The translations under genes were made by a program, and so were the position numbers. 64,000 bases of DNA, taken from positions 433,708 through 497,707 of the forward strand of contig JAFQXL010000004.1 in the NCBI GenBank assembly GCA_017406985.1, given 5' to 3'. Numbering within the stretch: the stretch's first letter is position 1; every line of letters starts with the position of its first letter. Shown piece after piece: positions 276-63,835 of the stretch. This stretch comes from Candidatus Saccharimonadota bacterium (GTDB lineage Bacteria; Patescibacteriota; Saccharimonadia; Saccharimonadales; Saccharimonadaceae). The notes under the pieces were generated by a model. The model saw nothing but the letters and a program-made list of their open reading frames with translations, was not told the origin of the DNA and ran no database searches.

Positions 276-2940
276 ATATTAAGTATATCATAGGTAACAG
301 ATAGACGTGAAGAGCGTTCGGGAGGCCGGAAAAGAAGATGAGTTGGAAGAGAAAGGCGACGAAGAGCGCGAGAGAAAAGGCATTAAACTTAATTTTTTCG
401 AGCTTAAAGAAAGTGATAATCGACATAATAAGGGCGAAAATCCCGAAAAGGCCGGTTTCAAGAAGAGTCTCGAGATATTCATTCTGGACAATCTCTTTTT
501 TATGTCCCTGTTTTTCGGGGAAATGACGATACAGCTCGGTTCCGGCAGAGCCAACGCCGGTCCCAAAGAGTAAGTTCGTCGGGTTTTCGGTCGAGATTTT
601 TAAGGCGAACTCGGCAAGCTCGAGACGGCGGTTTGTAGATTCTTCGACATAACCGTTAAAGTCAGGGGAATTATCTTCTGCTGGTTCGACTTCTTGAGAC
701 TTCTTCTTTAGAGGCTCAGTATGTCCGAGTTTATCGAAAGTAAGTTGAGAAAGGGCGCGATTTATCCCGGTTACATAGTTCGCGTCGGTCGGACCGATTG
801 TCGAGAGAATCCCTTGAAGATTTAAGCTAAAGATAAACGTAAAGAATATAAGCACGAGAAGCTTTATAAGACTTTTAAGACTTTTTCGAAAATGAATTAA
901 GAGGATAAACGCTCCGAGGAGAAAGGCAAAAATCGCTCCGCGAGAGAGAGTTAAGAAAAGGGTAGTTAAACTTAAAATCGCGACGAGAAGATAGTTTATT
1001 TGACTTTTTCTATTTTTATTTTTTAATAGGGAATTAAGGCTTAAGAAAATCGGCGCGAGAAGGAGAGAACCCATAAACTGCGGCTCGGGAGAAAAACCGT
1101 TTGGATGGGCGAAACCAAAAGTTTTAGAGACGCAGTTTTCGCAGAGAAGAGTTAAACTTTTATCGGCACCTATAGCGTCGAGAAAAACCTGAACGATACA
1201 GAAAAGACAAACGAGAGCAGTCGTAAAGAGAAAGATTTTCTTCGTATTTTTTATTAAAGTAGCGTTTCGAACAAGGTCTTTTATTCCTAAAATAGAGATA
1301 AAGAGGCAGAGGACTACACCGACAGTTAAAATCCCGCGGAGCTTATCGCTCGACCAGAGAAGAGTTAAAACGAGAAAAAGCGGAGCAAAAAGGAGCGGAG
1401 TTTTTAGATTTTCTTTAAGATATTTTAGAACCGGTTTTAGGCTGAGGAGTGCAAAAAACCCGAGCCAGATTAAGGGAAGAGTCAGCTCGAGATACATCGA
1501 GCTAGTTTCGCCGAGGATAAATTTCGGAAAATTCGAGAAGAAGAGAACGGCAGGAAAGGTCATAAAGAGGAAACTTCGAAGTCCCAGCGAGCCGATTTTA
1601 ATAGTTTTTTCCGTTTCTAAACGAGGCTTTTTTAGCGGGAGCTTTAGGGAATTAATCTCCTTTTTGATTTTCTTGACAAAGTTTTCCCGAGAGAATTTTT
1701 CGACAGATTTAGAAATTTTCTTCGAGTCGAGGGGAACTGTCCGCTTTTCAAATTTCTTTAAGGTTTTTTCAAGCGATTTTTCGGTCGGCTCGTCGAAGAA
1801 AAAGCCATTAACGTTTTCTTTAATATAATCTAGAGCGCCACCTTTTTTTAAAGCGATAACCGGACAGCCGGCGCTCATCGCTTCGACCGGCGCGATTCCG
1901 AACGGCTCTTCGCTCGGGAAGATAAACGCGTTCGCAAGGCTCGAGAGAAAAGCGAGATCTTGTTTTTTCAGAGGTTCGAGGAAGAGAATATTCTTCGAGT
2001 CTCCCGCAAGTTTTTTAAGCTTTCGGTTTTCCGGACCGTTTCCGATGAGAACCAAAGGAAGGTCTAGCTTTTTAAAAGTTTTAATGAGTAAATTGAGATT
2101 TTTCCAACTAACTTGGCGTGAAAAATTTAAATAAAATCCGTTCGGAAATCTAGTTAGAACTTCCGCGACTATGCTTAAGTTATCCACATTTTTGAGATTG
2201 GTGTAAAACTTTTGTTCGGATTTAAGCCCTTGATTTTCTTTAATTTTTATGTTTTCGTATGAAAGTCCTAGCATTTGCTTTTTCGTGATTTTTATTGTAT
2301 TATTTACAATTTCTTTAATTTGACTTTTCCCTACTTTCCTGTTGTAGTTATCCACATATTGTGCGAAAAACTCCGTATTAACAGGGGGAGAAATTACCTT
2401 TGATTCCCTTTTATAATAAGTCTTAATTTCGCTTTTAGCGAACTTCGAGATTGTTAAATATTTCGTCGGATTCTCGGAAGCCTTTAGGTCATTTTGTTTT
2501 AACTTCGGGGCGAGCCTCTTAAAAACTGCCCGAACGAGGGGGTTGAAGCCTTTAAATCCCGGATTTTTTAGATATTCCTCATATTTACCCCAATAATATT
2601 GAGTCGGGACATGGCAATAACAGAGGTGGACGCCGTCTGTTTTAACGAATTTTGCGTCGGAGCCGGTAATCGAGATAACGAGGTCATAGCCTTTTAGATC
2701 TAAATTTTTAAAATATCTTTGTCTTAAAGGCGCGATCAAACGACGAAATTTTGCCGGAAAAGCATCTAAATATCCGGTTTGAACATCAGCATCCTTAAAC
2801 CAGTCAATTCTCTCTTCCCTGTATTGGCTCGTATAAATCGGAGCGTCGGGATAGAGCCTATGTAGCTCTAAAAGAACCTGCTCCGCGCCCCCGACCTCCG
2901 TTAGCCAATCTATAACGAGCGCAACTTTTAGTTTTTTCAT
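232..2940 (-). CDS. Glycosyltransferase family 4 fused to an O-antigen ligase/polymerase-like membrane domain
   Basis: This 902-residue protein has two parts. Residues 1 to about 430 are a GT-B glycosyltransferase: the N-terminal VALVIDW...GGAEQVLLEL, and a SEEPFGIAPVEAM motif near residue 341 that supplies the E-x7-E donor-binding pattern. Residues from about 450 to the end are strongly hydrophobic with roughly ten to twelve membrane segments. A late loop with QNEYLETLLETGLFG resembles the Wzy_C/WaaL signature of O-antigen ligases and polymerases. The fusion suggests that one protein both adds a sugar and polymerises or transfers the lipid-linked glycan. The start overlaps the end of the sugar-transferase gene by 4 bases. 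A 56-codon segment at residues 196-252 interrupts the GT domain and is listed separately. The exact substrates cannot be read from sequence. Confidence 0.8.
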   Translation of the reverse strand: MKKLKVALVIDWLTEVGGAEQVLLELHRLYPDAPIYTSQYREERIDWFKDADVQTGYLDAFPAKFRRLIAPLRQRYFKNLDLKGYDLVISITGSDAKFVKTDGVHLCYCHVPTQYYWGKYEEYLKNPGFKGFNPLVRAVFKRLAPKLKQNDLKASENPTKYLTISKFAKSEIKTYYKRESKVISPPVNTEFFAQYVDNYNRKVGKSQIKEIVNNTIKITKKQMLGLSYENIKIKENQGLKSEQKFYTNLKNVDNLSIVAEVLTRFPNGFYLNFSRQVSWKNLNLLIKTFKKLDLPLVLIGNGPENRKLKKLAGDSKNILFLEPLKKQDLAFLSSLANAFIFPSEEPFGIAPVEAMSAGCPVIALKKGGALDYIKENVNGFFFDEPTEKSLEKTLKKFEKRTVPLDSKKISKSVEKFSRENFVKKIKKEINSLKLPLKKPRLETEKTIKIGSLGLRSFLFMTFPAVLFFSNFPKFILGETSSMYLELTLPLIWLGFFALLSLKPVLKYLKENLKTPLLFAPLFLVLTLLWSSDKLRGILTVGVVLCLFISILGIKDLVRNATLIKNTKKIFLFTTALVCLFCIVQVFLDAIGADKSLTLLCENCVSKTFGFAHPNGFSPEPQFMGSLLLAPIFLSLNSLLKNKNRKSQINYLLVAILSLTTLFLTLSRGAIFAFLLGAFILLIHFRKSLKSLIKLLVLIFFTFIFSLNLQGILSTIGPTDANYVTGINRALSQLTFDKLGHTEPLKKKSQEVEPAEDNSPDFNGYVEESTNRRLELAEFALKISTENPTNLLFGTGVGSAGTELYRHFPEKQGHKKEIVQNEYLETLLETGLFGIFALIMSIITFFKLEKIKFNAFSLALFVAFLFQLIFFSGLPNALHVYLLPMIYLIYDQNSFSRTRKRNN
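2178..2357. repeat. 168-bp in-frame segment bounded by 12-bp direct repeats containing DnaA boxes
   Basis: AGTTATCCACAT occurs at 2178-2189 and again at 2346-2357, exactly 168 bases (56 codons) apart. Both copies contain a perfect DnaA box, TTATCCACA. The segment lies inside the glycosyltransferase gene and keeps its frame; both repeats encode Val-Asp-Asn (residues 196 and 252). The intervening residues fall between the PPVNTEFF strand and the FYLNFSRQ strand, where GT4 proteins normally have only a short linker. Its codons (TAC, AAC, AGG, AGT, GTA) differ from those of the surrounding gene. Confidence 0.6.
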
Positions 2941-4355
2941 TTCGCCCCCTTTCCTGTTAAGACGATTTTAATTGTTTTAAAAAGGATTTCAAAATCGAAA
3001 CGAACCGACCAGTTTTCGACATAATAAATATCGAGAGCGCGGCGCTCTTTAAAGCTGATGTCTCTTCGTCCGGAGACTTGCGCGAGACCGGTTAAGCCGG
3101 ATTTAACAGAAAGAAGCAGGCTTCGGTCGCCATAATTTTTTAATTCTCCCGGAACGAGCGCGCGCGGACCGACAAGCGAAATATCTCCTTTCAAGACATT
3201 TATAATCTGGGGGAGTTCGTCGAGAGAAGTTTTTCTTAAAAAGTCTCCGAATTTAGTGATTCTTGGATCGTTTTTAAGATAGTCGCCGTTTTTACGATAT
3301 TCTTTTATTAACTCTTCCGCGTTTTTAATAATTCTCTGTTTTTGCATTTTTAAAAACGCCTGTTCTGGAGTTAAGCCGGAATATTCCGGTTTCATTGAGC
3401 GGAATTTATAGATTTTTACTTTTTTATTAAACCTACTTAAGCGAATTTGAGAATAGAGCGCTTTAGAATTCGGACTTAAAAGTTTTTGAATTATAAAGAT
3501 TATCGCCATCGGGACTAGAGCAATAATAAAGCTTACCCCGCCGAGAATTAAGTCCATCGCGCGTTTCGTCGCTTTTGCGCCGCCGATTAGGGGAGTTGCT
3601 TTTACTAAAATCGCCGGAGTATTCCCGACTAGCTCGAGTTCGCCGAGATGCGTCGAGAGGCTTGTTTCAGTCGGGACAAAATAATAAAGAAGGTGTTTTT
3701 CGACTGCCTGTTTATAAACATATTCAGTTCTATTTTCGTCGGTTTGAAAAATTATATCCGGTTTAGTTTTTTCCAGAGCCTTCTTTAATGACGAATATCT
3801 TAAAGTTTTTCGGAGGTCTTTCGGAATTAAACTCGCCTTACTAACAATTCCAACAATTTTATAACCCTCTTCCGGAAAACCTAAAATATTATCAATTAAA
3901 CTCGCGGTATTTTCGCTATTCCCTATTATAAGAACTTTTCTTAAGCCAATTTTTTGCCGAAGGATTAAGTTTCGAACCCCTTTAATAACTGTGCGCATAA
4001 TAAAGAGAGAGAGGAAGCAAGTTAACATCGCGTAAAGCGCAATCGGGCGGACCGGAAAGAGGTCGGTTTTTAAGAAAAAATCTACCGTAATAATCGACAT
4101 AACTCCGATAATGCTCGCGGTTAAAAGTCTTAAAGTTTCAGAGGCCTTTGAGCGATTTAAAATTACGTTTTTATTATAAAGGCCGAGAGCGAAGAGGATA
4201 AAAATCCAAACCGGAAGAAGAATACTTGTCGCAAGGACAAACTGACTAGGGTTCGACTCGAAATAATATGGGCGAGAGTCGATATGGATACGAATTAAGT
4301 AGGCATAAAGAAAAGAGGTGACGATTGCGATTATATCACCTATAATCAACGCCAC
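2937..4355 (-). CDS. Polyprenyl-phosphate sugar phosphotransferase (WcaJ/WbaP-like)
   Basis: The N-terminal half has about four membrane segments and a nucleotide-binding-like stretch (KVLIIGNSENTASLIDNIL). The last ~200 residues are the bacterial sugar transferase domain: KRAMDLILGG, then KIYKFRSM, TSLDELPQIINVLKGDISLVGPR and GLTGLAQVSGR. The family transfers a sugar-1-phosphate from a nucleotide sugar to undecaprenyl phosphate and so starts a surface polysaccharide. It is the first gene of the operon that continues with the GT4-ligase fusion. The start is uncertain. The first standard start codon is GTG at 4355, but the only good Shine-Dalgarno (AGGAGG, 4390-4395) lies just before two in-frame ATT codons (4383-4388). 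An ATT start would add about ten residues, including KRETGVVFR, that look natural before the first membrane helix. Confidence 0.88.
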   Translation of the reverse strand: MALIIGDIIAIVTSFLYAYLIRIHIDSRPYYFESNPSQFVLATSILLPVWIFILFALGLYNKNVILNRSKASETLRLLTASIIGVMSIITVDFFLKTDLFPVRPIALYAMLTCFLSLFIMRTVIKGVRNLILRQKIGLRKVLIIGNSENTASLIDNILGFPEEGYKIVGIVSKASLIPKDLRKTLRYSSLKKALEKTKPDIIFQTDENRTEYVYKQAVEKHLLYYFVPTETSLSTHLGELELVGNTPAILVKATPLIGGAKATKRAMDLILGGVSFIIALVPMAIIFIIQKLLSPNSKALYSQIRLSRFNKKVKIYKFRSMKPEYSGLTPEQAFLKMQKQRIIKNAEELIKEYRKNGDYLKNDPRITKFGDFLRKTSLDELPQIINVLKGDISLVGPRALVPGELKNYGDRSLLLSVKSGLTGLAQVSGRRDISFKERRALDIYYVENWSVRFDFEILFKTIKIVLTGKGAK

Positions 4356-4419
4356 CCTAAAAACTACACCAGTTTCCCTTTTAATAATACCTCCTGAAAT
4401 ATCTGTCGCTTATGGTTAT

Positions 4420-4448
4420 ATTTTACTAGGGTTACTTGTGTTTTTCAA
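4420..4448 (-). promoter_or_regulatory. Promoter of the sugar-transferase operon
   Basis: On the minus strand, TTGAAA (4443-4448) and TAAAAT (4420-4425) are separated by exactly 17 bases, about 65 bases upstream of the sugar-transferase gene. This is a close match to a housekeeping sigma promoter. Confidence 0.65.
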
Positions 4449-4463
4449 GAGGATTGATTTATT

Positions 4464-5696
4464 TTAAATAAGTTTCTTTAATACTTCGAGGAGTTTATCG
4501 ATTTGTTCTGGGGTGTTTTGATAGCCGAAAGAGAGGCGAACAAGTGGAGGAAAATGCATTCTATGATCAAGATAATAATGAACGCAGAAATAGCCAGTTC
4601 TTGTCATAATCCCCTCGTTTGCGAGGGCTTCGCCGAGAAGATGAGAATCTAGACCATCGACGTAAAAACTCATAGTTGAGCTTGGCTCATAATTTAAAAG
4701 ATGGAGCTTTCCTTTGTGACTACGGCGCTCTTCAATATCTTTATCGACTTCGCCGGTCGAGCCGTATTTTTCGAAAAAGTCAAAAACTCTTTGTTCGTTC
4801 TCTTCTAAAGTTTTCTTCGTGGATTTAGGGAGCTTTTCAAGCCAGTCGATCGCGGAGCCGAGCGCAATAATCTCGCCCCAAGCCTGTAGTCCAGCTTCGA
4901 ACTTCGTATAGAGATGATCCGGATTATCTTTCGAGAGAAGATAAGTTTCTAAATCGACATCGTCGACCATTCCGCCGCCAATAAAGCTCGTCTCGATTAA
5001 CGGTTCGAAATCTTTTCGCATAATAATCCCGCCGAGAGAAGGAGCATACATTTTATGCGCCGAAAAACAAATTGCATCCGCTTCACACTTTTCTAAGATA
5101 AATGAACTGTGCGCCATTGCCTGCGCCGCATCAATCACAATATAGCCGTTATTTTTATGAACAAATTTCACGACCTCTTTTAGATTTTTTAAAACGCGAC
5201 CGTCGATATTCGAAGCGCAGTTTAAAACAACGAGTGAGTTTTTTGGAATATCTTTTAGATTAACCGAACCGTCCGAGTTTCTTTTAACAACTTTTCGCTT
5301 TAAGCCGGTTCGCTTCGCAAAAGCAATCGTTGAGAGAAAAGGAGAGTTATGTTCAATTTCACTCGTCACGACATATTTAATTTTAGCTTTTTTTGCGTCA
5401 AACTGAGACAGGATTAAATTTAAGCCGTAAGTCGTATTTGAGGTAAAACTAACAAAATAATCTTTCTTTTTAAGTTTTAGGTAATTTAAAACTTTTTCGC
5501 GGGTAGCGTTTACTTTTTCGTCAGTAATTCTTCCCCATTTATATTTTACGCGTTCACCACAAGAATTATGTTCTTTATAATATTTCTCTAAAGTTTCGAT
5601 TACGGGCTCCGGACGTAAACTTTGGCAAGCGCCGTCAAGATAAATATCTTTCTCATTTAAGTAGCTAAAGTCGTTTTTTGAAGATTTTTTAAACAT
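4464..5696 (-). CDS. Class V PLP-dependent aminotransferase, cysteine desulfurase-like
   Basis: This is a 410-residue fold-type I PLP enzyme. The start has YLDGACQSL, typical of the class V family. The AVVLNCASNIDGR-like and IDAAQAMAH stretches match the cofactor-binding core. The PLP lysine is in CFSAHKMYAPSLGG near residue 212. A cysteine in RTGYFCVHYY near residue 371 sits where cysteine desulfurases (SufS/IscS) carry their catalytic cysteine, and VRLSFGYQNTPEQID closes the domain. The likely reaction is cysteine to alanine with sulfur transfer for Fe-S clusters or tRNA thiolation. A related isopenicillin-N-epimerase-type role cannot be excluded, because no scaffold gene (sufU, iscU) is nearby. 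It follows the GT2 gene with a good AAGGAG ribosome site. Confidence 0.8.
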   Translation of the reverse strand: MFKKSSKNDFSYLNEKDIYLDGACQSLRPEPVIETLEKYYKEHNSCGERVKYKWGRITDEKVNATREKVLNYLKLKKKDYFVSFTSNTTYGLNLILSQFDAKKAKIKYVVTSEIEHNSPFLSTIAFAKRTGLKRKVVKRNSDGSVNLKDIPKNSLVVLNCASNIDGRVLKNLKEVVKFVHKNNGYIVIDAAQAMAHSSFILEKCEADAICFSAHKMYAPSLGGIIMRKDFEPLIETSFIGGGMVDDVDLETYLLSKDNPDHLYTKFEAGLQAWGEIIALGSAIDWLEKLPKSTKKTLEENEQRVFDFFEKYGSTGEVDKDIEERRSHKGKLHLLNYEPSSTMSFYVDGLDSHLLGEALANEGIMTRTGYFCVHYYLDHRMHFPPLVRLSFGYQNTPEQIDKLLEVLKKLI

Positions 5697-5710
5697 ATTT
5701 TCTCCTTTTT

Positions 5711-5752
5711 AGTTATCCACAAGTGGGTAAAACTTGTTCGGGTTTTTTCGTT
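5711..5752. repeat. DnaA-box repeat copy between two genes
   Basis: AGTTATCCACA at 5711-5721 is a third copy of the repeat that bounds the segment in the 902-residue gene, including a perfect TTATCCACA box. It is followed by GGGTAAAACTTGTTCGG, similar to the GTGTAAAACTTTTGTTCGG that follows the copy at 2178. The homology therefore extends beyond the box itself. Confidence 0.5.
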
Positions 5753-5758
5753 CGGTTT

Positions 5759-6742
5759 TTAAGACTTGTTCGGTTTTACAGAGGTAGATTCTAGATTTCG
5801 GGAATGCTTCTTTGAAACGATATAGAGCGGACGATTTTGGGTTTCGGCGTGGATATGGGAAATATAGAGCGCCGTAATTGCTTGAGAAACTAATACTAGA
5901 CCGACAAGGAAGGTAATAAAGATTGCCATCTGGACCGCACCGTTCCAATAAAGTTTAAGCGGATCGCCTAAGATATACTGATTAATAATACAGAAGCTTC
6001 CGAGTAGGAACGAACCGATTGTGATAAAAATTCCGACATAGCCGAAGACTACGAGCGGGGTAGTCGACATCGAGATAAAACTGTCAATCGCAAGATTAAA
6101 GAGCTTCTTGAAGTTATAGCTCGGCTCTCCCGCCATACGCTCGCCATAAGTATAATAAATATCTTTTTTCTCATAGCCGAGCCAATCAACAAGACCGCGA
6201 GTAATGCGGTTATGCTCGGTTAGCTCATTAAACTCGTCGACGACGATGCGGTCCATTAGACGGAAGTCAGTCGAGCCAGGGACGGTCGTTTTATTTCCCA
6301 TAATTCTGAGCAGTTTATAGAAAAGCTTTGAACCGAGTTTCGGGATTAAGCCGTGTTTTGTATAATGATCGCGAACACCGGTTACGATTTCGGCGCCATC
6401 TTCCCAAGCCTTAATAAAGTCTTTAATTTTTTCCGGAGGCTGTTGTCCGTCCGAATCGATCGTCATGACAGCGTCGCCTGTAGCATATTTTAGACCGGCG
6501 GAGAGCGCCATCTCTTTTCCGAAGTTACGAACCAAAGAGACAACTTTCATATCTTTGTTCTTCTCAGCATAGCTCTGCAGAATTTCAAGGGTTTTGTCTT
6601 TTGAGCCGTCATTCACTAAAACTAATTCAAAATTATAGTCCTCAATTTTCTGAACTTCAGGGATTAAGCGTCCATCAAGGAACTTTCTAATTCCTTTTTC
6701 TTCATTACAAACCGGAATTACGATTGAGATTTTTTTAGTCAT
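5759..6742 (-). CDS. GT2 glycosyltransferase with two C-terminal membrane helices (DPM1/GtrB-like)
   Basis: This 327-residue protein begins with SIVIPVCNEEKGI, the GT-A nucleotide-binding strand. It carries LVLVNDGSKDKTLEIL and a TIDSDGQQPPE motif (DxD, near residue 95) for metal and nucleotide-sugar binding. Two hydrophobic helices follow near residues 225-290. This matches polyprenyl-phosphate glycosyltransferases (GtrB, dolichyl-phosphate mannose synthase-like), which load a sugar onto undecaprenyl phosphate at the membrane. The GT-C-like protein at 37-39 kb could use such a donor. The ATG overlaps the stop of the LexA-like gene (ATGA), so the two are co-transcribed. Confidence 0.85.
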   Translation of the reverse strand: MTKKISIVIPVCNEEKGIRKFLDGRLIPEVQKIEDYNFELVLVNDGSKDKTLEILQSYAEKNKDMKVVSLVRNFGKEMALSAGLKYATGDAVMTIDSDGQQPPEKIKDFIKAWEDGAEIVTGVRDHYTKHGLIPKLGSKLFYKLLRIMGNKTTVPGSTDFRLMDRIVVDEFNELTEHNRITRGLVDWLGYEKKDIYYTYGERMAGEPSYNFKKLFNLAIDSFISMSTTPLVVFGYVGIFITIGSFLLGSFCIINQYILGDPLKLYWNGAVQMAIFITFLVGLVLVSQAITALYISHIHAETQNRPLYIVSKKHSRNLESTSVKPNKS

Positions 6743-7095
6743 TTTTTATCTCCTCTTTTTTCTTCTTCGATTCCATCAATACCAAGAATAAAGGCGGCTT
6801 TTCTCAAAATAGCTTTTTCTTCTTCAGTAGCGGTGTACATTCTAGCTTTAAAAAGGCTAGTTGTTTCCGGAAAAGTTAAGTCGACAACTTCAAGCGCGCG
6901 GGCTTCGCCTTCGCCAGATTTTTTCAAAGCGCCAAGGGCGACGAGGTGGTCAATATGTTCGGCGACACTAGCGACAGATTTTAACTCTAGACCGGCGGCG
7001 ATTTCGCGATAAGTCGGGGAGACGCCGTTTTTGTCCTTATAATCAGAAATAAAGTCTAAAATTCGCTTCTGCTTCTTCGTAATTTTAATTCCCAT
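6739..7095 (-). CDS. LexA-like winged-helix DNA-binding protein without the protease domain
   Basis: The product is 118 residues with the chosen start. Residues 1-65 match the LexA DNA-binding domain (KKQKRILDFISDYKDKNG, then VSPTYREIAAGLELKSVASV and HIDHLVALGALKK). The remaining ~50 residues are too short for the S24 autoprotease and hold no recognisable Ser-Lys dyad, so it cannot self-cleave as LexA does. I chose the ATG at 7095 because a TATAAT box ends 9 bases before it; the ATG seven codons upstream would sit inside that promoter. It may repress its own operon with the GT2 and aminotransferase genes. The target is unknown. Confidence 0.75.
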   Translation of the reverse strand: MGIKITKKQKRILDFISDYKDKNGVSPTYREIAAGLELKSVASVAEHIDHLVALGALKKSGEGEARALEVVDLTFPETTSLFKARMYTATEEEKAILRKAAFILGIDGIEEEKRGDKK

Positions 7096-7104
7096 ATTAG
7101 TATA

Positions 7105-7113
7105 ATTATAACA
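7105..7113 (-). promoter_or_regulatory. Extended -10 promoter of the LexA-like gene, leaderless
   Basis: Minus-strand TGTTATAAT has its TATAAT at 7105-7110, nine bases before the ATG at 7095. It overlaps the stop region of the upstream LCP gene. Confidence 0.55.
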
Positions 7114-7115
7114 CA

Positions 7116-8861
7116 TTATTCGGCAGTATAACCTACGCCAAGGATAACGACGAAGTCGGCGCCGGTCGTGTCGATTCCATCCGGAAGATAGGTTGAGTCG
7201 AGGGATTTTATATTATAATAAGTTTCGAGGCGCTCTTTTGTCGCGGATTTATTCGTTAAGCTATAGAGGTAGATTTTCTCGAAATATTCTCCCGCCGGAG
7301 CGTTTCCTGTATTTAAGACATTAAAGCTAGATTTTATTAACTCATTTTTTTCTTTTTCAGCTACCCCCTCGACGCCAGAGCCGTTTAAAACTAAGATTTT
7401 TGCATTTTCAAGCGTTACGGGATTTGTCATTAAACTAGATTTTATATATTCCTGAATACTCGAATAATTCCCGACTCCAGCGACCGGATAGACATAAGAA
7501 ATTCCACTAATATAACCGGTTGTAAAATAATTATTTCCAGTCCCAGTTAACGGAATCTGGCGAATCGAAGAGATGTCAGTTCCGGCGAGAACCTTCGCGC
7601 CGGCAGTAATTGTATCAGCATTAAGGTTCGAACGGACATTATCCCCCAAGATATTAACGAAATTGACTAATTCCGGAACGCCAAGATTCATAGTCGAGAT
7701 TTTTTCTTTAATCGCGATTAAAATCTTTTGTTGAGAAGCGGCGCGAGTAAAGTCGCCATTTTCGGTTCCGTGTCTTGCGCGAGCAAGACCGAGCGCCTGT
7801 TCCCCGTTTAAGGACACTGGGGCGCCGGCTTTAATAAAGGTTTTAGTCCAGTCGTCATTAATATCTTCGTCGAGAGTTACAGTTATTCCGCCAATCGCAT
7901 CGACAATCTGAATTAGAGACATCCAGTTTAAGTGAGCATAATATTGAATTTCGAGACCGAGCATATTTTCGACGCGCTCTTTCAAGGCTCTCGAGCCGCC
8001 AGCTTCGTTATTTCCATCTTTATTTTCGCAATAATAAAGCTCGTTAATTTTTCCAGTCGCGGTACAAGTATCGGTTTTTAAATCACGTGGAAGAGAAACC
8101 ATCGCAATATCTCTTGATTTTTGATCGAGAGAGACGACCATAATCGAGTCGGTAAGCTGGGCGCCGTCATGGACACCGTCCGCTTCATTTCCCGCCATAT
8201 CATAGCCAGAAGTTCCGAAGATAAGCAAATTCGTTCGTCCGTTTTCGTCGGTTTTTAATTCTGCCGGCCCGAGGACAATCGAGCGAAGAAAGTCGAAAAG
8301 ACCGGATTCGCCGTTTGTAATTTTTAGCATAATCGAATCGCCCCAAATAAAAGCGATGAGTAGAAGACAAGTTATCGGAGCGACAACAAAAGACAAGATT
8401 TTATGACGAAAAATAAAAAGTTTTTTATGTTTTTTCGAACGATTTTTTCGTTTTTCTCTTTTTGCTTTTCGGCGAGCTTCCCTTAAGTCATCCGAGTCAA
8501 ATTCTAACTCTTCATCTTCTTCGACACCTAAAATGTCCCGAGCATAAGAACGCGGACGGCTCGGCTCGACAGTCTTCGTTTCCCTTTTAATAAAGCCAGC
8601 TTCTTTCATTTTTGAAGCGGAAGAAATTTTATTAGAAATGCCTGAAGTTTTTAAGACGCGCGTCTTTTTTTCCGGAGTTTTTGGGGCTTTTTTAAAGACG
8701 GCGCGGTCGGTCGAACTACTAATATTACGGCGAGCGCGACGCGTCGCGAAAGGATCGCCAGTTTCTACACTAAGATATCCAGAAGAAAAACGGCTTTTAC
8801 TCGAAGCACTCGCTTTTTCCGAGCGAGTCTTTAGTCCGTCAATAAAAGAATTATTAGCCAA
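7116..8861 (-). CDS. LytR-CpsA-Psr (LCP) family protein with LytR C-terminal domain
   Basis: This 581-residue protein starts with about 145 basic, low-complexity cytoplasmic residues, then one membrane helix (about 150-172). The extracytoplasmic LCP domain contains TDSIMVVSLD, SLPRDLK, GGITVTLDEDI, LNGEQALGLARAR and DFTRAASQQ, with the arginines and aspartates that bind the pyrophosphate of the lipid-linked polymer. The last ~100 residues (KILVLNGSGVEG) match the LytR_C domain. LCP proteins transfer undecaprenyl-linked glycopolymers to peptidoglycan. The start is TTG at 8861, chosen because GGAGG lies only four to five bases upstream. It lies next to the polysaccharide genes, which fits anchoring of their product. 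Confidence 0.9.
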   Translation of the reverse strand: MANNSFIDGLKTRSEKASASSKSRFSSGYLSVETGDPFATRRARRNISSSTDRAVFKKAPKTPEKKTRVLKTSGISNKISSASKMKEAGFIKRETKTVEPSRPRSYARDILGVEEDEELEFDSDDLREARRKAKREKRKNRSKKHKKLFIFRHKILSFVVAPITCLLLIAFIWGDSIMLKITNGESGLFDFLRSIVLGPAELKTDENGRTNLLIFGTSGYDMAGNEADGVHDGAQLTDSIMVVSLDQKSRDIAMVSLPRDLKTDTCTATGKINELYYCENKDGNNEAGGSRALKERVENMLGLEIQYYAHLNWMSLIQIVDAIGGITVTLDEDINDDWTKTFIKAGAPVSLNGEQALGLARARHGTENGDFTRAASQQKILIAIKEKISTMNLGVPELVNFVNILGDNVRSNLNADTITAGAKVLAGTDISSIRQIPLTGTGNNYFTTGYISGISYVYPVAGVGNYSSIQEYIKSSLMTNPVTLENAKILVLNGSGVEGVAEKEKNELIKSSFNVLNTGNAPAGEYFEKIYLYSLTNKSATKERLETYYNIKSLDSTYLPDGIDTTGADFVVILGVGYTAE

Positions 8862-8933
8862 TTTTCCTCCGTTTTTATATATCTATTTTACCATATCCGG
8901 AATAGATTTTACAGAGGAGAAAACGTTTTTATA

Positions 8934-8942
8934 TGTTATACT
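8934..8942 (+). promoter_or_regulatory. Extended -10 promoter of rnpA
   Basis: TGTTATACT ends 11 bases before the ATG at 8954. The transcript would start only a few bases before the start codon, and no Shine-Dalgarno sequence is present. Confidence 0.45.
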
Positions 8943-8953
8943 ATATATATTAT

Positions 8954-9292
8954 ATGTTAGCAAAAAGATACAGATTTCATTCAAGAGGCGGAGTGAATTT
9001 TACCTATAAAAACGGTAAAACAATTCGCACGCCAAAAATATCTTTAGTTTTTGCAAAAAATTCGAGAAACCATCAGAGGTTTGCGGTAGTTATTTCGAAA
9101 AAAGTGATTAAGTCGGCGGTCGGAAGAAATCGAGTTAGAAGACGAGTCTATGAAGCGATTAGATTAAATCTTCCAGAATTTAAAGATAAAAAAGATTGTA
9201 TTTTCGTCATTTATTCTAAAAGTATAAAAGAAATGAGCTTCTTAGAGCTTAGAAAACTCATTTCTGATTTATTATTCCAAAGCAGAAATTAA
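8954..9292 (+). CDS. rnpA: Ribonuclease P protein component
   Basis: The protein is 112 residues from the ATG at 8954, a normal length for RnpA. It contains the RNR signature in GRNRVRRRVYEAIR and the preceding FAVVISKKVIKSAV strand, which form the basic groove that binds precursor tRNA with the RNase P RNA. The upstream ATG at 8933 overlaps the -10 box, so the later start is preferred. Unlike the usual rpmH-rnpA-yidC-jag order on one strand, rnpA faces jag and yidC here; the rnpA and khpB stop codons are one base apart. No RNase P RNA is visible in this window. Confidence 0.93.
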   Translation: MLAKRYRFHSRGGVNFTYKNGKTIRTPKISLVFAKNSRNHQRFAVVISKKVIKSAVGRNRVRRRVYEAIRLNLPEFKDKKDCIFVIYSKSIKEMSFLELRKLISDLLFQSRN

Positions 9293-9293
9293 T

Positions 9294-9770
9294 TTATTCT
9301 TCTTCAGCAGGGATATCTTTCTTTGAGATAATAAGATGTCTTGCGCGACCTTCGCCCTCGGAGTGAGTTTCGATGTCGGAATAATCTTGCGCGAGTTTAT
9401 GGACAACACGGCGGTCGGCAGCGTTTAGCTCGATAGTCATCGGCTCGCCAGTCGAGCGGACTTTAGAAATCCAGCCTTCAGCTTTCTGTTCAATACGATC
9501 GGCGCGCTGTCTCTTATAGTCGGCGACGTCGACATTAACACGAGTTAATTCCCCGCCACGAGAAACTAAACTTTGAGAAACGATATATTGAAGCGCGCGT
9601 AAATTATCGGCGTTTCGACCGATTAAAAGCGAGTTTAGACTTGTCGACGGAACACTTAATTGAATTACGTCGTCTTCGACTGTCGACCAGACAGCGACAT
9701 TAATTCCGAAGAAACTTAAAAGATCTTCGAGGTATTTTGTAGCGAAGCGGATAGATTCGTCACGATTCAT
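9294..9770 (-). CDS. khpB: KhpB/Jag RNA-binding protein (KH and R3H domains)
   Basis: The product is 158 residues. The middle has a KH-type fold with the LLIGRNADNLRALQYIVSQ helix, and the C-terminal part is an R3H domain with AADRRVVHKLAQDYSDIETHSE, including the R-x3-H pair. The classical Jag_N domain is missing or replaced by a short ~35-residue start. KhpB binds many RNAs and affects cell elongation and division in Gram-positive bacteria. Its start overlaps the yidC stop by four bases, the usual yidC-jag coupling. Confidence 0.9.
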   Translation of the reverse strand: MNRDESIRFATKYLEDLLSFFGINVAVWSTVEDDVIQLSVPSTSLNSLLIGRNADNLRALQYIVSQSLVSRGGELTRVNVDVADYKRQRADRIEQKAEGWISKVRSTGEPMTIELNAADRRVVHKLAQDYSDIETHSEGEGRARHLIISKKDIPAEEE

Positions 9771-10798
9771 GGTTTTCTCCTTTTACTTTTTAAATCTTTC
9801 GCTTTTATACGCGTAATTTTTGTTCCGGTTTTTTTATTTTCAACAACTTCAGCTTCCTGAATTTGTTTAGTTTTTTGGTTCAATTCCTTTAAAATAGCGC
9901 GGTCGGTATTATCGTCCATCTCGTCGTCAACACGATTTAGGATAACACGATATTGAAGAGTCGAAATTAAGTTCGAGAGCATATAGTAGAAACAGAGCGC
10001 GCCCGGAAGATTTATTGTAATCATGAGCATCATTAAAGGCATCATAAAGGTCATTTGTCCACTAACCATCTCATTAAGGTCGTCCTGATTCGGATCTTTT
10101 CCAGCTTTCGCATCTTCCATCATACGTTTCCAAGTTCCGCCTTTTTTCTTCTTTTTACCCTGAGACGCCATTTGCATCTTCGAGTTTAAGAACTGAATCA
10201 AAGCGGCACCGACCGCAAAAGCGAGAACAATCCACTGGCTAACACTACCGGTTCCCGGACGGACAGATAAATCGACTAAACCGAAGAGCATCGGCTTAAA
10301 TTCATAAGTCGGGTTCTCTTCGCCTTCTTGTTTGTTCTCGATTTTTTCAAAATAAGTTTTTTGTTGAGAGATTACTTCGGAGATTTTATCAAGCGAGGCG
10401 ACCGGAGCGTAGGCACGTTTCTCGAGATAATCGTTCGTAGTCGGGAGAGCCATTACGCGAATTGCGGTAAACATCGCGATAAAAATCGGGAGTTGAATTA
10501 AAATCGTCCAAATCGAGCTCATCGGTTTTACGCCACGGCGCTTATATAAATCCATCATCTGGAGCGATTCCATCTGTTTATTTCCATTACAGCGTTTTCT
10601 AATTTCAGTAAGCTCCGGCTGAATCTTTCGCATTAATTTAGTCTGATATAACTGTTTCTTCATAAGCGGCCAAGTTAAGAATTTAACGATAATCGTAAAG
10701 AGGATAATCGCAAGACCAAAGTCGCCAACGAAGTTATAAATTACAAAAAGAATATTAACAATTGGATTTACAATTAAAAAGTCAATTAACTCAAACAT
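9767..10798 (-). CDS. yidC: Membrane protein insertase YidC/Oxa1
   Basis: This 343-residue protein has the Oxa1 core. A first helix near residues 12-35 leads into TIIVKFLTWPLMKKQLYQT, then the cytoplasmic loop KIQPELTEIRKRCNG, and later helices carry IWTILIQLPIFIAMFTAIR and FMMPLMMLMITINLPGALCFYY. It inserts proteins into the membrane alone or with SecYEG. A basic C-terminal tail may touch ribosomes. There is no large periplasmic domain, so it is the short Gram-positive type. A consensus promoter ends eight bases before the ATG and there is no Shine-Dalgarno sequence. Confidence 0.93.
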   Translation of the reverse strand: MFELIDFLIVNPIVNILFVIYNFVGDFGLAIILFTIIVKFLTWPLMKKQLYQTKLMRKIQPELTEIRKRCNGNKQMESLQMMDLYKRRGVKPMSSIWTILIQLPIFIAMFTAIRVMALPTTNDYLEKRAYAPVASLDKISEVISQQKTYFEKIENKQEGEENPTYEFKPMLFGLVDLSVRPGTGSVSQWIVLAFAVGAALIQFLNSKMQMASQGKKKKKGGTWKRMMEDAKAGKDPNQDDLNEMVSGQMTFMMPLMMLMITINLPGALCFYYMLSNLISTLQYRVILNRVDDEMDDNTDRAILKELNQKTKQIQEAEVVENKKTGTKITRIKAKDLKSKRRKP

Positions 10799-10806
10799 AT
10801 AGGTTC

Positions 10807-10835
10807 ATTATACTATAGGGGTGAGAAAAATTCAA
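10807..10835 (-). promoter_or_regulatory. Promoter of yidC-khpB, leaderless
   Basis: Minus-strand TTGAAT (10830-10835), a 17-base spacer and TATAAT (10807-10812) lie with the -10 box only eight bases before the yidC ATG. The predicted transcription start coincides with the start codon. The promoter begins next to the end of the upstream ABC transporter gene. Confidence 0.7.
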
Positions 10836-10837
10836 TT

Positions 10838-12664
10838 CTATTTTATCTTCGAGTTTACAGTCTTTGTATTTTCGGCGTCATTTAGATAACCACCGTCGTC
10901 GCCTCTGTCGTCTTTTTGAATTATAAAGTCATTATTAACACTCGGCTCAGCATAGTTCGCGGTCATAAGTTCGCGATAGAGAGCGGATTTTTCAAAAACT
11001 TCGTGGTTTCGCCCTTTAGCGGATACTTTTCCGCGATCTAGGACGATAACTTGGTCCGCAAGCTGCATAATCTGGGCCTTATGAGTAATAATAATTACAG
11101 TATGGTCCTCTTTTAAGTCCTTTAGGATCTCGATTATATCGGCGACAGAAGCTGGATCAATATTCGAGACAACTTCGTCGAAGAGGAGAATTTCCGCTTG
11201 AGAGAGGAGGGCGCGAGCAATTGCAAGTTTTTTTAGTTGTCCGTCCGAGAGAACCGGATTTTCTTCGTCGATAATCGTATTAATTCCGTAAGGGAGCTTT
11301 TCAATATCTTTATAGATTCCGACGCGCTTTAAGGCGGAAATCTGATTTTTTAAGTCAGAATCAATAAGCGATAAATTATCTTTAATACTCATTTTAAAGG
11401 CAAAAGATTTTTGAAAAACACCAGAAACATTCGAGCTATAAACTTTTTTCGTATAGTTATAAATACTTTCGTCGTCAATTAAAATTGAGCCGGATTTAAC
11501 GCGGTAGAGGCGATAAAGGAGATTTATAATTGTAGTCTTCCCTGCCCCCGGATGGCCGACGATAGCAGTAATTTCGTTCGGGAGAGCTTTAAAGCTGACA
11601 TTTCTTAAAATTTTCTTATTCTTTAAATCATAATTAACATGATCGAAAGTAACTACTCCGTTTATATAATCATTATCAACGTCACCATATTCAATCTCGG
11701 CGGTTTCGTTTGTATAATTTAAAATATGTTTAATTCGGTTTATACGGACGGTATAATGAGAAAGATTTAAGAACTGTTCAAGAATCTCGTCAGTATTAGT
11801 AATAACCATTTCAAAATAAGAAACAAGGAGAACGAGTTTATCGAGTGTCATCTTATTATCTAAAACGAGCGCAGCAAGAAGAACATAAAGCGCGATTTTT
11901 CCGACGTAAACAATCATCGGGATTTTACAATAGCGCGAAGTCATAAAGACATATTGTTTATCATATTGAATATCATAATCTCTACGGCTTTTATCGAGAC
12001 GCTTTGTTAAGTTCGGCATTATATTTAGAGATTTAACCTGCTTTAGATTTCCGAGCATCTGATTTAAGATATCAATGATTTTATCCTGATATTTTCTAGT
12101 CCCCTCATAATATTTCGCGATTTTTCGAGAGTTATTATTCATAATTTTTAGATAAATCACGTCGATTATAAGCGCGATTAAAGCAACCCAAATATTATAG
12201 CTCGCGAAGATAATAAAGATAACTGCGAGCTGGATTAAGCCAGTAAAAGCGTCCGAAGCGGCGTCGACAGCATAAACAATATAAGAAACATCTTCGGAAC
12301 AAGTATCGGTAATTTTTCCTTTACTGATTTTTTCTAGGATTGAGTCGTTATTTGCGATATGTTCAAAAAGTTCCTGCTGGACTGTAGAATAATAATGATG
12401 AGAAAGGCGGACATAAACGTGATAATTCCAAGAAAGAAAAGCAAACTGAAGAACATAAAAGAGGAGATATAAAACTACATAAAACCAAATAGCTTTAAAT
12501 TCGCCACGGTCGGTTAAGACACCAATAATTCCGGCGGTAGCAAGAGGCGGGAGAAGGCTCGCGAGATTATAGAGCATATTCGAAACAAAAATCTGGATTA
12601 TCTCAAACTTTTTACCCGGAGCCAAACTAATTATTTGTTTTATAACCTCAAAGTGATTATGCAT
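10838..12664 (-). CDS. ABC exporter, fused membrane and ATPase domains
   Basis: This 608-residue half-transporter has six membrane segments in the first ~310 residues. The nucleotide-binding domain at about 335-575 holds Walker A GHPGAGKTT, the signature LSDGQLKKLAIARALL, Walker B ILLFDEVVSNID and a switch histidine in VIIITHKAQ. It would work as a homodimer and export a lipid, peptide or drug; the substrate is not evident. It lies between rpmH and yidC, a place where these two genes are usually close together. The TAAAAT box is only six bases before the ATG and overlaps the rpmH terminator tail. Confidence 0.88.
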   Translation of the reverse strand: MHNHFEVIKQIISLAPGKKFEIIQIFVSNMLYNLASLLPPLATAGIIGVLTDRGEFKAIWFYVVLYLLFYVLQFAFLSWNYHVYVRLSHHYYSTVQQELFEHIANNDSILEKISKGKITDTCSEDVSYIVYAVDAASDAFTGLIQLAVIFIIFASYNIWVALIALIIDVIYLKIMNNNSRKIAKYYEGTRKYQDKIIDILNQMLGNLKQVKSLNIMPNLTKRLDKSRRDYDIQYDKQYVFMTSRYCKIPMIVYVGKIALYVLLAALVLDNKMTLDKLVLLVSYFEMVITNTDEILEQFLNLSHYTVRINRIKHILNYTNETAEIEYGDVDNDYINGVVTFDHVNYDLKNKKILRNVSFKALPNEITAIVGHPGAGKTTIINLLYRLYRVKSGSILIDDESIYNYTKKVYSSNVSGVFQKSFAFKMSIKDNLSLIDSDLKNQISALKRVGIYKDIEKLPYGINTIIDEENPVLSDGQLKKLAIARALLSQAEILLFDEVVSNIDPASVADIIEILKDLKEDHTVIIITHKAQIMQLADQVIVLDRGKVSAKGRNHEVFEKSALYRELMTANYAEPSVNNDFIIQKDDRGDDGGYLNDAENTKTVNSKIK

Positions 12665-61044: not shown

Positions 61045-61062
61045 GTTTATTAGCGTTAAAAT

Positions 61063-61082
61063 TGCCCATCTGGGCATTTTTT
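61063..61082 (+). terminator. Terminator after tRNA-Ser
   Basis: TGCCCATCTGGGCA (61063-61076) followed by TTTTTT. Confidence 0.8.
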
Positions 61083-61084
61083 GA

Positions 61085-61118
61085 TACCACGCCTCGCCGT
61101 AAGGCGCGGCGGATATCA
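61085..61118. repeat. Long imperfect hairpin after tRNA-Ser
   Basis: GCC-T-CGCC-GTAA-GGCG-C-GGC pairs, flanked by GATACC and GGATATC. It is not followed by a T-run, so it is not an ordinary terminator. It resembles the hairpins in the tRNA operon at 63 kb in its position behind a tRNA. The rest of the gap to 61164 shows nothing clear. Confidence 0.4.
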
Positions 61119-61164
61119 AGAAAATACCAATCTATCGGCTTTTATTCTCGAATTGCTTTGAAAC

Positions 61165-63204: not shown

Positions 63205-63264
63205 TAAAATCGGCTTATGGTAAGCCTTTCGCTTCGCAAAAGTCTTTCCAAACGTCGTCGACCA

Positions 63265-63292
63265 CAAAAAATGAGAGCAAGCTCTCTTTTTT
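63265..63292. terminator. Bidirectional terminator of the tRNA operon
   Basis: AAAAAATGAGAGCAAGCTCTCTTTTTT: GAGAG-CAAG-CTCTC with A and T runs on both sides. It ends the minus-strand tRNA operon and any plus-strand transcript. Confidence 0.8.
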
Positions 63293-63306
63293 GTAATCTC
63301 CTAGTT

Positions 63307-63381
63307 TGGTAGGGCAGGTTGGAATCGAACCAGCATTGTATCCTTAGAGGGGATATGTCCTATCCGTTGAACGACTGCCCC
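63307..63381 (-). tRNA. tRNA-Arg (TCT), with C at position 33
   Basis: 75 bases with encoded CCA. Acceptor GGGGCAG pairs with CTGCCCT (G-U at the first pair), D arm GTTCAACGGATAGGAC, anticodon stem TATCC/GGATA and T arm GCTGG-TTCGATT-CCAAC (G-C/T-A partly wobble). The loop reads CCTCTAA, so the anticodon is TCT and the normally invariant U33 is C. Confidence 0.85.
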
Positions 63382-63394
63382 AGTTGACGCGTTT

Positions 63395-63443
63395 TGGTGA
63401 CTCGGGCGGGAGTAGACTGTGCCTTCTCCGCTTCCTCGTCTCC
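63395..63443. repeat. Hairpin carrying a copy of the tRNA-Arg(CCT) 3' end
   Basis: 63393-63413 is identical to 63477-63497, the last part of tRNA-Arg(CCT) including CCA. The other arm (minus strand GGAGACGAGGAAGCGGAG) pairs back onto this copy with a few mismatches. The element lies 35 bases downstream of that tRNA on its own strand. Confidence 0.65.
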
Positions 63444-63478
63444 AAATGAAACAAGAACTTGAAGAGTTCTTTTTCCTT

Positions 63479-63555
63479 TGGTGACTCGGGCGGGAGTCGA
63501 ACCCACAACCTTCTCCTTAGGACGGAGCTGCTCTATCCAATTGAGCTACCAAGCC
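63479..63555 (-). tRNA. tRNA-Arg (CCT)
   Basis: 77 bases with encoded CCA. Acceptor GGCTTGG/CCGAGTC with two G-T pairs, D arm GCTCAATTGGATAGAGC, anticodon loop GTCCTAA (CCT) and T arm GTGGG-TTCGACT-CCCGC with one mismatch-like pair. Position 33 is the normal T. Confidence 0.9.
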
Positions 63556-63563
63556 CTGGATAT

Positions 63564-63618
63564 TGGTAGACCGGTCGCTCTAACGTCGCTTCGCTCCGTA
63601 TCGCTGACCGTTCTTCCA
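63564..63618. repeat. 55-base hairpin element, copy B
   Basis: It is homologous to copy A: the central GCTCTAAC-TCGCTTCGC-GTATCGCTGA is shared. The outer arms differ in base but still pair (AGA/TCT and CGGTCG/TGACCG here, AAGCGC/GCGCTT in copy A). It lies eight bases upstream of tRNA-Arg(CCT). Confidence 0.6.
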
Positions 63619-63687
63619 TAAAATCTACGGACTACGTCCGTTTTTATCTTCGATAAAACTTACCTTCGGTAAGTATCGATTTTATGG
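63616..63687. repeat. 72-base cloverleaf-forming element
   Basis: The ends CCATAAAATC (63616-63625) and GATTTTATGG (63678-63687) pair perfectly over ten bases. Inside are three hairpins: ACGGAC-TAC-GTCCGT (63627-63641), TTTTATC-TTC-GATAAAA (63642-63658) and CTTACC-TTC-GGTAAG (63659-63673). Only five bases (63626 and 63674-63677) are unpaired outside the loops. No coding frame is present. Confidence 0.65.
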
Positions 63688-63733
63688 TGATCTCGGCGGG
63701 AGTAAGCTGTCGCTTTCTCCGCTTCTCATCACC
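63685..63733. repeat. Hairpin carrying a copy of the tRNA-Glu 3' end
   Basis: 63685-63703 is identical to 63761-63779, the 3' end of tRNA-Glu with CCA. On the minus strand GGTGAT pairs with ATCACC, GCGGAG with CTCCCGC (one bulge) and AAGC-GACA-GCTT closes the tip. It is related to the hairpin at 63395-63443. Confidence 0.65.
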
Positions 63734-63760
63734 AATTGAATAGACCTACGGTCCATCCAT

Positions 63761-63835
63761 TGGTGATCTCGGCGGGAGTCGAACCCGCGTTGACGGGATG
63801 AAAACCCGTTGTACTAACCGTTATACTACGAGACC
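63761..63835 (-). tRNA. tRNA-Glu (TTC)
   Basis: 75 bases with encoded CCA. Acceptor GGTCTCG/CGAGATC, anticodon stem ACGGG/CCCGT with loop TTTTCAT (TTC), T arm GCGGG-TTCGACT-CCCGC. It is the first gene of a three-tRNA operon on the minus strand. Confidence 0.95.

Follow-up and report, generated by a model that had tools for sequence, protein, structure and literature searches.

Gene-less units carrying copies of tRNA 3′ ends behind tRNA genes of Saccharibacteria: candidate mobile DNA cassettes

RESULTS

Three tRNA genes and two hairpin units in the window

The window, that is, the whole stretch of 64,000 nucleotides of a Saccharibacteria genome that was analyzed, contains a cluster of three tRNA genes, two of which are followed by a terminator-like segment and a hairpin (Table 1). 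The Glu hairpin consists, in order, of an arm, a spacer, an inner stem (GCGGAG/CTCCCGC, with a bulged C), a tip, and the 19-nt copy, and in both hairpins the copied stretch, which forms the 3′ arm, corresponds to the hairpin's own tRNA from the T-loop to CCA. Thus, the claim of an earlier note on this DNA, that each hairpin carries an exact copy of the 3′ end of the tRNA upstream, was borne out at both genes. The terminator-like segment of the Glu unit occupies the position of the extended terminator palindrome of relatives. At 76 and 84 bp, the two units leave no room for a gene, and neither contains one for an integrase. The module behind the third gene gave a match to model R1 (see below) at 63215-63339 (42.6 bits, E 4e-8); it is related to the units but has no second tRNA-end copy. 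In Rfam 15, no family but tRNA matched within the window. A long palindromic sequence (GTTTATTAGCGTTAAAATTGCCCATCTGGGC...) begins behind tRNA-Ser(GCT), at 61045-61150, and is nearly identical to one behind tRNA-Ser(CGA) of the same genome; in relatives, such palindromes form the terminator part of units.

Table 1. Positions of the tRNA genes and associated features in the window
Feature	Position	Strand	Remarks
tRNA-Glu(TTC)	63761..63835	(-)	Putative dock of first unit; ARAGORN and Rfam
Last 19 nt of tRNA-Glu	63761-63779	(-)	Original of the copied end
Glu tRNA-end copy ACTCCCGCCGAGATCACCA	63685-63703	(-)	19/19 against the tRNA original
Glu terminator-like hairpin segment GGACC-GTA-GGTCT	63736..63760	(-)	Between tRNA-Glu and hairpin; from the sequence
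Glu class 1 hairpin	63685..63735	(-)	Model R2, 58.8 bits
Glu hairpin arm TTGGTGAT	63728-63735	(-)	
Whole Glu unit, CCA to CCA	63685-63760	(-)	76 bp
tRNA-Arg(CCT)	63479..63555	(-)	Putative dock of second unit; ARAGORN and Rfam
Last 19 nt of tRNA-Arg(CCT)	63479-63497	(-)	Original of the copied end
Arg(CCT) tRNA-end copy ACTCCCGCCCGAGTCACCA	63395-63413	(-)	19/19; 21/21 when the next two A are included
Arg(CCT) terminator-like hairpin AAGAACTcttcAAGTTCTTGTTT	63446..63478	(-)	Between the tRNA and its hairpin
Arg(CCT) class 1 hairpin	63395..63445	(-)	Model R2, 44.4 bits; 3′ end is the 19-nt copy
Whole Arg(CCT) unit	63395-63478	(-)	84 bp
tRNA-Arg(TCT)	63307..63381	(-)	Third gene of the cluster; ARAGORN and Rfam
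P3-P4-like structured module	63215..63309	(-)	Directly behind CCA of tRNA-Arg(TCT)
Module part CCAAAC-TAGGAG-hairpin-CGACGAC-GTTTGG	63248-63309	(-)	
Module hairpin AAAGACTTTTGCGAAGCGAAAGGCTT	63222-63247	(-)	

In the folds of both window hairpins, an outer stem leads through an internal loop to an inner stem, in which one C is bulged, and a hairpin forms the tip; the folding energies are -22 and -21 kcal/mol (RNA parameters), and the CCA of the class 1 copy is paired. Class 1 elements other than these lack the bulged base, and class 2 lacks the outer stem. The other arm had been said to differ between the two hairpins in step with their tRNAs; it does differ, but by one base pair only (T:A versus C:G), and the Arg hairpin has a mismatch. 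Covariation in the class 1 outer stem was not above shuffling among 14 related elements; the convincing fit to tRNAs is that of class 3, larger elements found in relatives. Several internal loops of class 1 and class 3 place GA opposite GA (CGAG/CGAG), which is the setting of sheared tandem G-A pairs and is possibly a protein-binding feature.

Copies behind the other tRNA genes of the genome

All 41 tRNA genes of the 731-kb genome that holds the window (G000) were surveyed for tRNA-end copies. In addition to the 19/19 matches for Glu and Arg(CCT), a third, decayed case was found behind tRNA-Ser(TGA) (17/19; G000:C3:378904), while for the remaining tRNAs the best copy within 400 nt reached at most 13/19. 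Copies thus stand behind three tRNAs and are lacking at most others, and these scores exclude chance; the survey likewise rules out composition as their source. Degenerate remnants of duplicated tRNA genes, which the earlier note had named as the case against its reading, were not seen, though most tRNAs of this genome lack copies; this origin was rejected, as the copies span the T-loop to CCA, are accompanied by an inverted arm, and share a core.

Distribution and anatomy of the units among relatives

The window elements apparently belong to a large, undescribed family: our literature search found no published description of such tRNA-end units, and the same layout was found when 174 genomes of this genus were searched (the genomes being mostly metagenome assembled, one per species). 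An exact pattern scan for the Glu layout across 85,000 species returned 95 stretches, and among the 80 that were read, the layout stood at a tRNA only in 3 Saccharibacteria. Three relatives that have names in the public collection are Saccharibacteria, and ruminant gut is the source of the two with a stated origin. In a first sample, about 11 of some 29 tRNA-Glu(TTC) loci had a second copy, and in one unit-rich genome (G126) it was seen behind about 17 of those tRNAs that were examined, with several unrelated cores. Across the genus and near relatives, 259 loci were sampled; 94 of them have a unit, and 29 of the 45 kinds of tRNA are represented among these. The rates are not genome averages, since the sample is biased to matches.

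The units are gene-less. Each begins with a terminator palindrome, which is followed by the inverted arm, the core, and finally the tRNA-end copy, and the length from CCA to CCA is bimodal (60 to 100 and 160 to 200 bp). Their conserved ends are the tRNA's own sequence (RTCACCA and a T-stem strand). Core families are common to different tRNAs, e.g., Thr(TGT) and Pro(CGG) of G126, and several unrelated cores occur at the same site. When eight loci of classes 1 to 4 were compared with Rfam, matches besides tRNA were at chance level only. A first test of arm fitting over all classes, using fixed windows, gave a modest signal (left arm, 6.14 versus 5.46 of 8; right arm, 5.50 versus 5.28); fitting is therefore claimed on the basis of class 3.

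Structural conservation and tRNA fit of the class 3 core

Class 3 has the best-defined core, a branched structure of about 135 nt. The model of this core, R1, was built from six copies and matched in 142 of 170 genus genomes, as well as in a sister genus (g8) and at one tRNA-Ser of another family within the phylum. There, a class 3-like element with a different P3 loop follows tRNA-Ser(GGA) (L361, G521:C9:9000-14500). In an alignment of 94 copies, which was fitted to the model and hence somewhat favors structure, all 35 of 35 pairs change on both sides, and paired cells amounted to 93%, compared with 69% after shuffling; sliding the strands abolished the signal. The loop bases AGGA, GA, GA, and GACG are 94 to 100% conserved.

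Of 87 class 3 copies examined, 83 follow a tRNA on the same strand, and for 71 of these 83 the distance from CCA is 30 to 60 nt. Pairing of the 5′ arm with the T-stem strand of its own tRNA was better than under all reassignments (0 of 2,000 as good), the 3′ end was most like the own tRNA in 71 of the 83, and the P2 hairpin can be read as the T-arm, first inverted and then direct.

Insertions were encountered at two class 3 loci. In L252 (G088:C28; positions 5915-8920), an insert of about 2.9 kb interrupts the P2 hairpin of a unit; it contains a transposase-like gene and two other genes and is flanked on both sides by GAACCCGCAG; the transposase-like gene is IS30-like by eye, and Pfam gives helix-turn-helix domains only. 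In L259 (G126:C3:140000-147000; positions 1577-3837), a 2-kb insert with a 592-aa reading frame and GCACCAGTAA common to both ends, separates tRNA-Gly(CCC) from its class 3 unit.

Mispairs in the stems

In the tRNA-fitted stem (P1), G·T and A·C mispairs occur at 5.9% and 6.2%, and in P3a, they occur at 0.9% and 1.2%, respectively, unlike the tRNA acceptor stems of the same genomes, where G·T reaches 7.5% and A·C only 0.2%. This parity of G·T and A·C points to DNA for these two stems, although for P1 the symmetry is no more than a hint. In P2 and the apical stem, G·T is above A·C, as in RNA. Earlier suggestions that the hairpins act as RNA, either as a decoy for the CCA-adding enzyme or RNases or as a processing hairpin, are weakened, since a terminator stands between the hairpin and the tRNA, the copied CCA is base paired, and A·C breaks in the tRNA-fitted stem are as frequent as G·T.

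Stacking, patchy presence, and grouping of cores

Stacking of units with exact CCA boundaries was observed in six comparisons. At tRNA-Lys(CTT) of G153, a unit that has a separate terminator and core lies between CCA and a second unit, and this second unit is found directly behind CCA in G147 (87% identity over 208 nt). An extra tRNA-proximal unit was likewise found for Tyr (G153 versus G147), Val (G105 versus G147), and Glu (G057 versus G085), and in the mixed-class stacks of G108 and G015, the extra unit is also tRNA proximal. Extra units in this position are what insertion at a tRNA-proximal site would predict. The Arg(CCT) unit is missing at the same gene in three relatives (G038, G054, and G161); of these, G038 is syntenic, and both G038 and G054 have Glu and Arg tRNA genes identical to those of the window, yet no unit at Arg(CCT).

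Within the genus, cores cluster by tRNA identity (41 changes versus 55 when shuffled), and copies from one genome are no more alike than copies from different genomes, giving no sign of within-genome bursts. The tRNA-wise grouping indicates either one unit lineage per tRNA or long persistence with rare jumps. At 10 of 94 loci, compared with 1 expected, the flank behind the second copy repeats the flank behind the first (t1=t2). These 10 loci can be explained by a simple tandem duplication of the tRNA end together with the terminator; for the remainder, this was rejected.

Search for a mover

No dedicated recombinase was found in the unit-rich genomes, which show one tyrosine recombinase each, of Xer type by size and spread. 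The Y1 transposase (PF01797) is present in one of nine unit-rich genus genomes (G000 is among the nine and lacks it) and in none of the sister-genus genomes, and reverse transcriptases showed no correlation with units. Tyrosine integrase, Y1 transposase, and reverse transcriptase were therefore rejected as dedicated movers. The window's own genome carries two reverse-transcriptase-like genes (RVT_1; G000:C1:39146-39859 and C3:64239-64877). The viral collection IMG/VR yielded only chance matches and no unit copies, and phage-borne units were rejected on this ground.

A 10.7-kb element encoding a large serine recombinase (PF00239 and PF07508) was found between tRNA-Glu and its class 1 hairpin in G047 (L106, G047:C7:54500-67600; positions 1285-12100), and similar sequence lies behind tRNA-Glu in G098 and G115 and behind tRNA-Arg(TCT) in G160. 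The ends of the element have only TCACCAA in common with the tRNA end. This recombinase was rejected as mover as well: such islands use the same tRNA end, but the hairpin stays outside.

DISCUSSION

The anatomy of the units, their match to the local tRNA, their stacking at exact boundaries, their patchy presence, and the structural conservation of one core were all observed directly. The most likely reading, to which we give an even chance, is that the units are gene-less, site-specific mobile DNA cassettes that dock at the tRNA 3′ end via a folded site. A cassette of about 60 to 200 bp would insert right behind CCA, leaving the tRNA intact and supplying a new terminator, and the end of the cassette away from the tRNA would bring a second tRNA-end copy, allowing more cassettes to stack tRNA proximally. 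Insertion would be enzymatic, with one DNA strand, in folded form, being recognized as the site, and the enzyme would act in trans, being encoded elsewhere, perhaps on a mobile element. Among the meanings offered by the earlier note, a mobile element fits best, given the patchiness, the arrays with exact CCA boundaries, and the shared cores with locally matched ends, but no integrase of the kind it invoked lies alongside. More speculatively, and somewhat doubtfully, any tRNA 3′ end might serve as attachment site for self-contained gene-less cassettes, which would then be a new class of mobile DNA driven by a recombination mechanism of Patescibacteria, each cassette rewriting its own inverted arm to fit the tRNA, restoring the terminator, and building arrays. 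Several observations count against cassettes: the searches for a dedicated recombinase and for viral copies found neither, G·T exceeds A·C in P2 and the apical stem, tRNA-wise grouping of cores is also expected from long vertical inheritance at each tRNA, and the t1=t2 repeats are as expected from tandem duplication; also to be weighed is the Thr-to-Pro case, which joins a donor core to the recipient tRNA end, an outcome that a simple crossover at the shared T-arm would not yield.

The main rival, which we regard as rather unlikely, is template switching during replication, with no enzyme devoted to it. Both the terminator and the tRNA end form hairpins by nature; the polymerase might turn at the terminator and copy back the flank and the tRNA end, yielding the inverted arm, and a second turn at the T-arm followed by resumption would leave direct-inverted-direct copies, which palindrome correction would afterwards keep fitted to each tRNA. 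Compensatory changes via template switching have been described (PMC8794818). The terminator palindrome often reaches CCA (the first 12 nt recur inverted, at 11/12 or better, in 45 of the 94 unit-bearing loci versus 30 of the 165 others), and the inverted-then-direct T-arm of P2 and the t1=t2 repeats point in the same direction. Template switching alone leaves unexplained a core of about 75 nt with 94 to 100% conserved loops that is common to tRNAs, genomes, and two genera, as well as stacks with different terminators and cores. Gene conversion, proposed earlier to keep the hairpins matched, may do so for the arms, with palindrome correction as an alternative, and is retained as a rival. A host function, with the units serving as a structured RNA or DNA element behind tRNA genes, e.g., a bidirectional terminator insulator or a tRNA-maturation RNA, appears improbable to us: persistence by tRNA identity, the extreme conservation of internal-loop bases, and the excess of G·T over A·C in P2 and the apical stem agree with it, but the units are present patchily (the first sample had them at about 11 of 29 tRNA-Glu loci, and G000 has them at 3 of 41 tRNAs), unrelated cores share one place, a terminator stands between tRNA and element, the CCA of the class 1 copy is paired, and Rfam gave no match. 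It is very improbable that the units are attachment-site remnants of ordinary tRNA-borne genomic islands whose inside was lost. Identical short units and boundaries recur across many species, and a tyrosine integrase was never found alongside; the large serine recombinase element at tRNA-Glu of three genomes would suit such an origin, but its ends match the tRNA end by TCACCAA only, with the hairpin outside the island. A regenerated tRNA with a displaced 3′ fragment is nevertheless the classical signature that islands leave (PMC4383910), and the units resemble tyrosine-integrase islands in showing an intact upstream tRNA, a displaced fragment downstream, and borders that both carry the tRNA 3′ end as a direct repeat (19/19 in both window units). 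They differ from such islands in their size (60 to 200 bp), in the lack of integrase and cargo, in the many tRNAs used per genome, and in the tRNA-fitted inverted arm.

The cassette reading has its closest parallel in integrons, whose integrases recognize attI in double-stranded form and attC as a folded site that has a spacer, extrahelical bases, and a variable tip (PMC8946536). The imperfect palindromic end site resembles attC in part: the window's class 1 elements have an outer stem, an unpaired spacer, an inner stem with one bulged base, and a variable tip, but the bulged base is lacking in the remaining class 1 elements and the outer stem in class 2. As in integron arrays, units stack at a fixed dock with the newest proximal; and like CALINs, they have no linked recombinase. 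Unlike integrons, the units lack genes, their genomes show no integron integrase (the one tyrosine recombinase per genome being Xer-like by size and spread), and their dock is a tRNA 3′ end that differs from tRNA to tRNA and is followed by the arms; the attC core (RYYYAAC/GTTRRRY) is also missing. Since integrase and attC core are missing, the likeness is one of working principle, not of membership. REP, MITE, and other palindromic repeats are likewise short, gene-less, structured, dispersed, and intergenic, but the unit ends are rewritten to the adjacent tRNA and the units occur almost only behind tRNA genes, and, unlike REP with RAYT/Y1, most unit-carrying genomes have no Y1 transposase. Quasipalindrome or template-switch mutations would account for inverted copies and perfect re-matching of arms, but the known events are small, and none has been described that builds conserved-core arrays behind tRNA genes.

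If template switching proved to be the explanation, the units would offer an exceptionally clear example from nature of hairpins that copy and repair themselves at tRNA genes. If the cassette reading is true, tRNA genes would be docking sites used in a new way: in these streamlined episymbiotic bacteria they would be platforms for integron-like arrays with no integron integrase, and one folded DNA site could be refitted to many different targets. This would bear on the origin of folded-strand recombination and on the unexplained hairpin-rich gaps in Patescibacteria genomes, and it may offer an entry point for DNA insertion into these hard-to-engineer bacteria.
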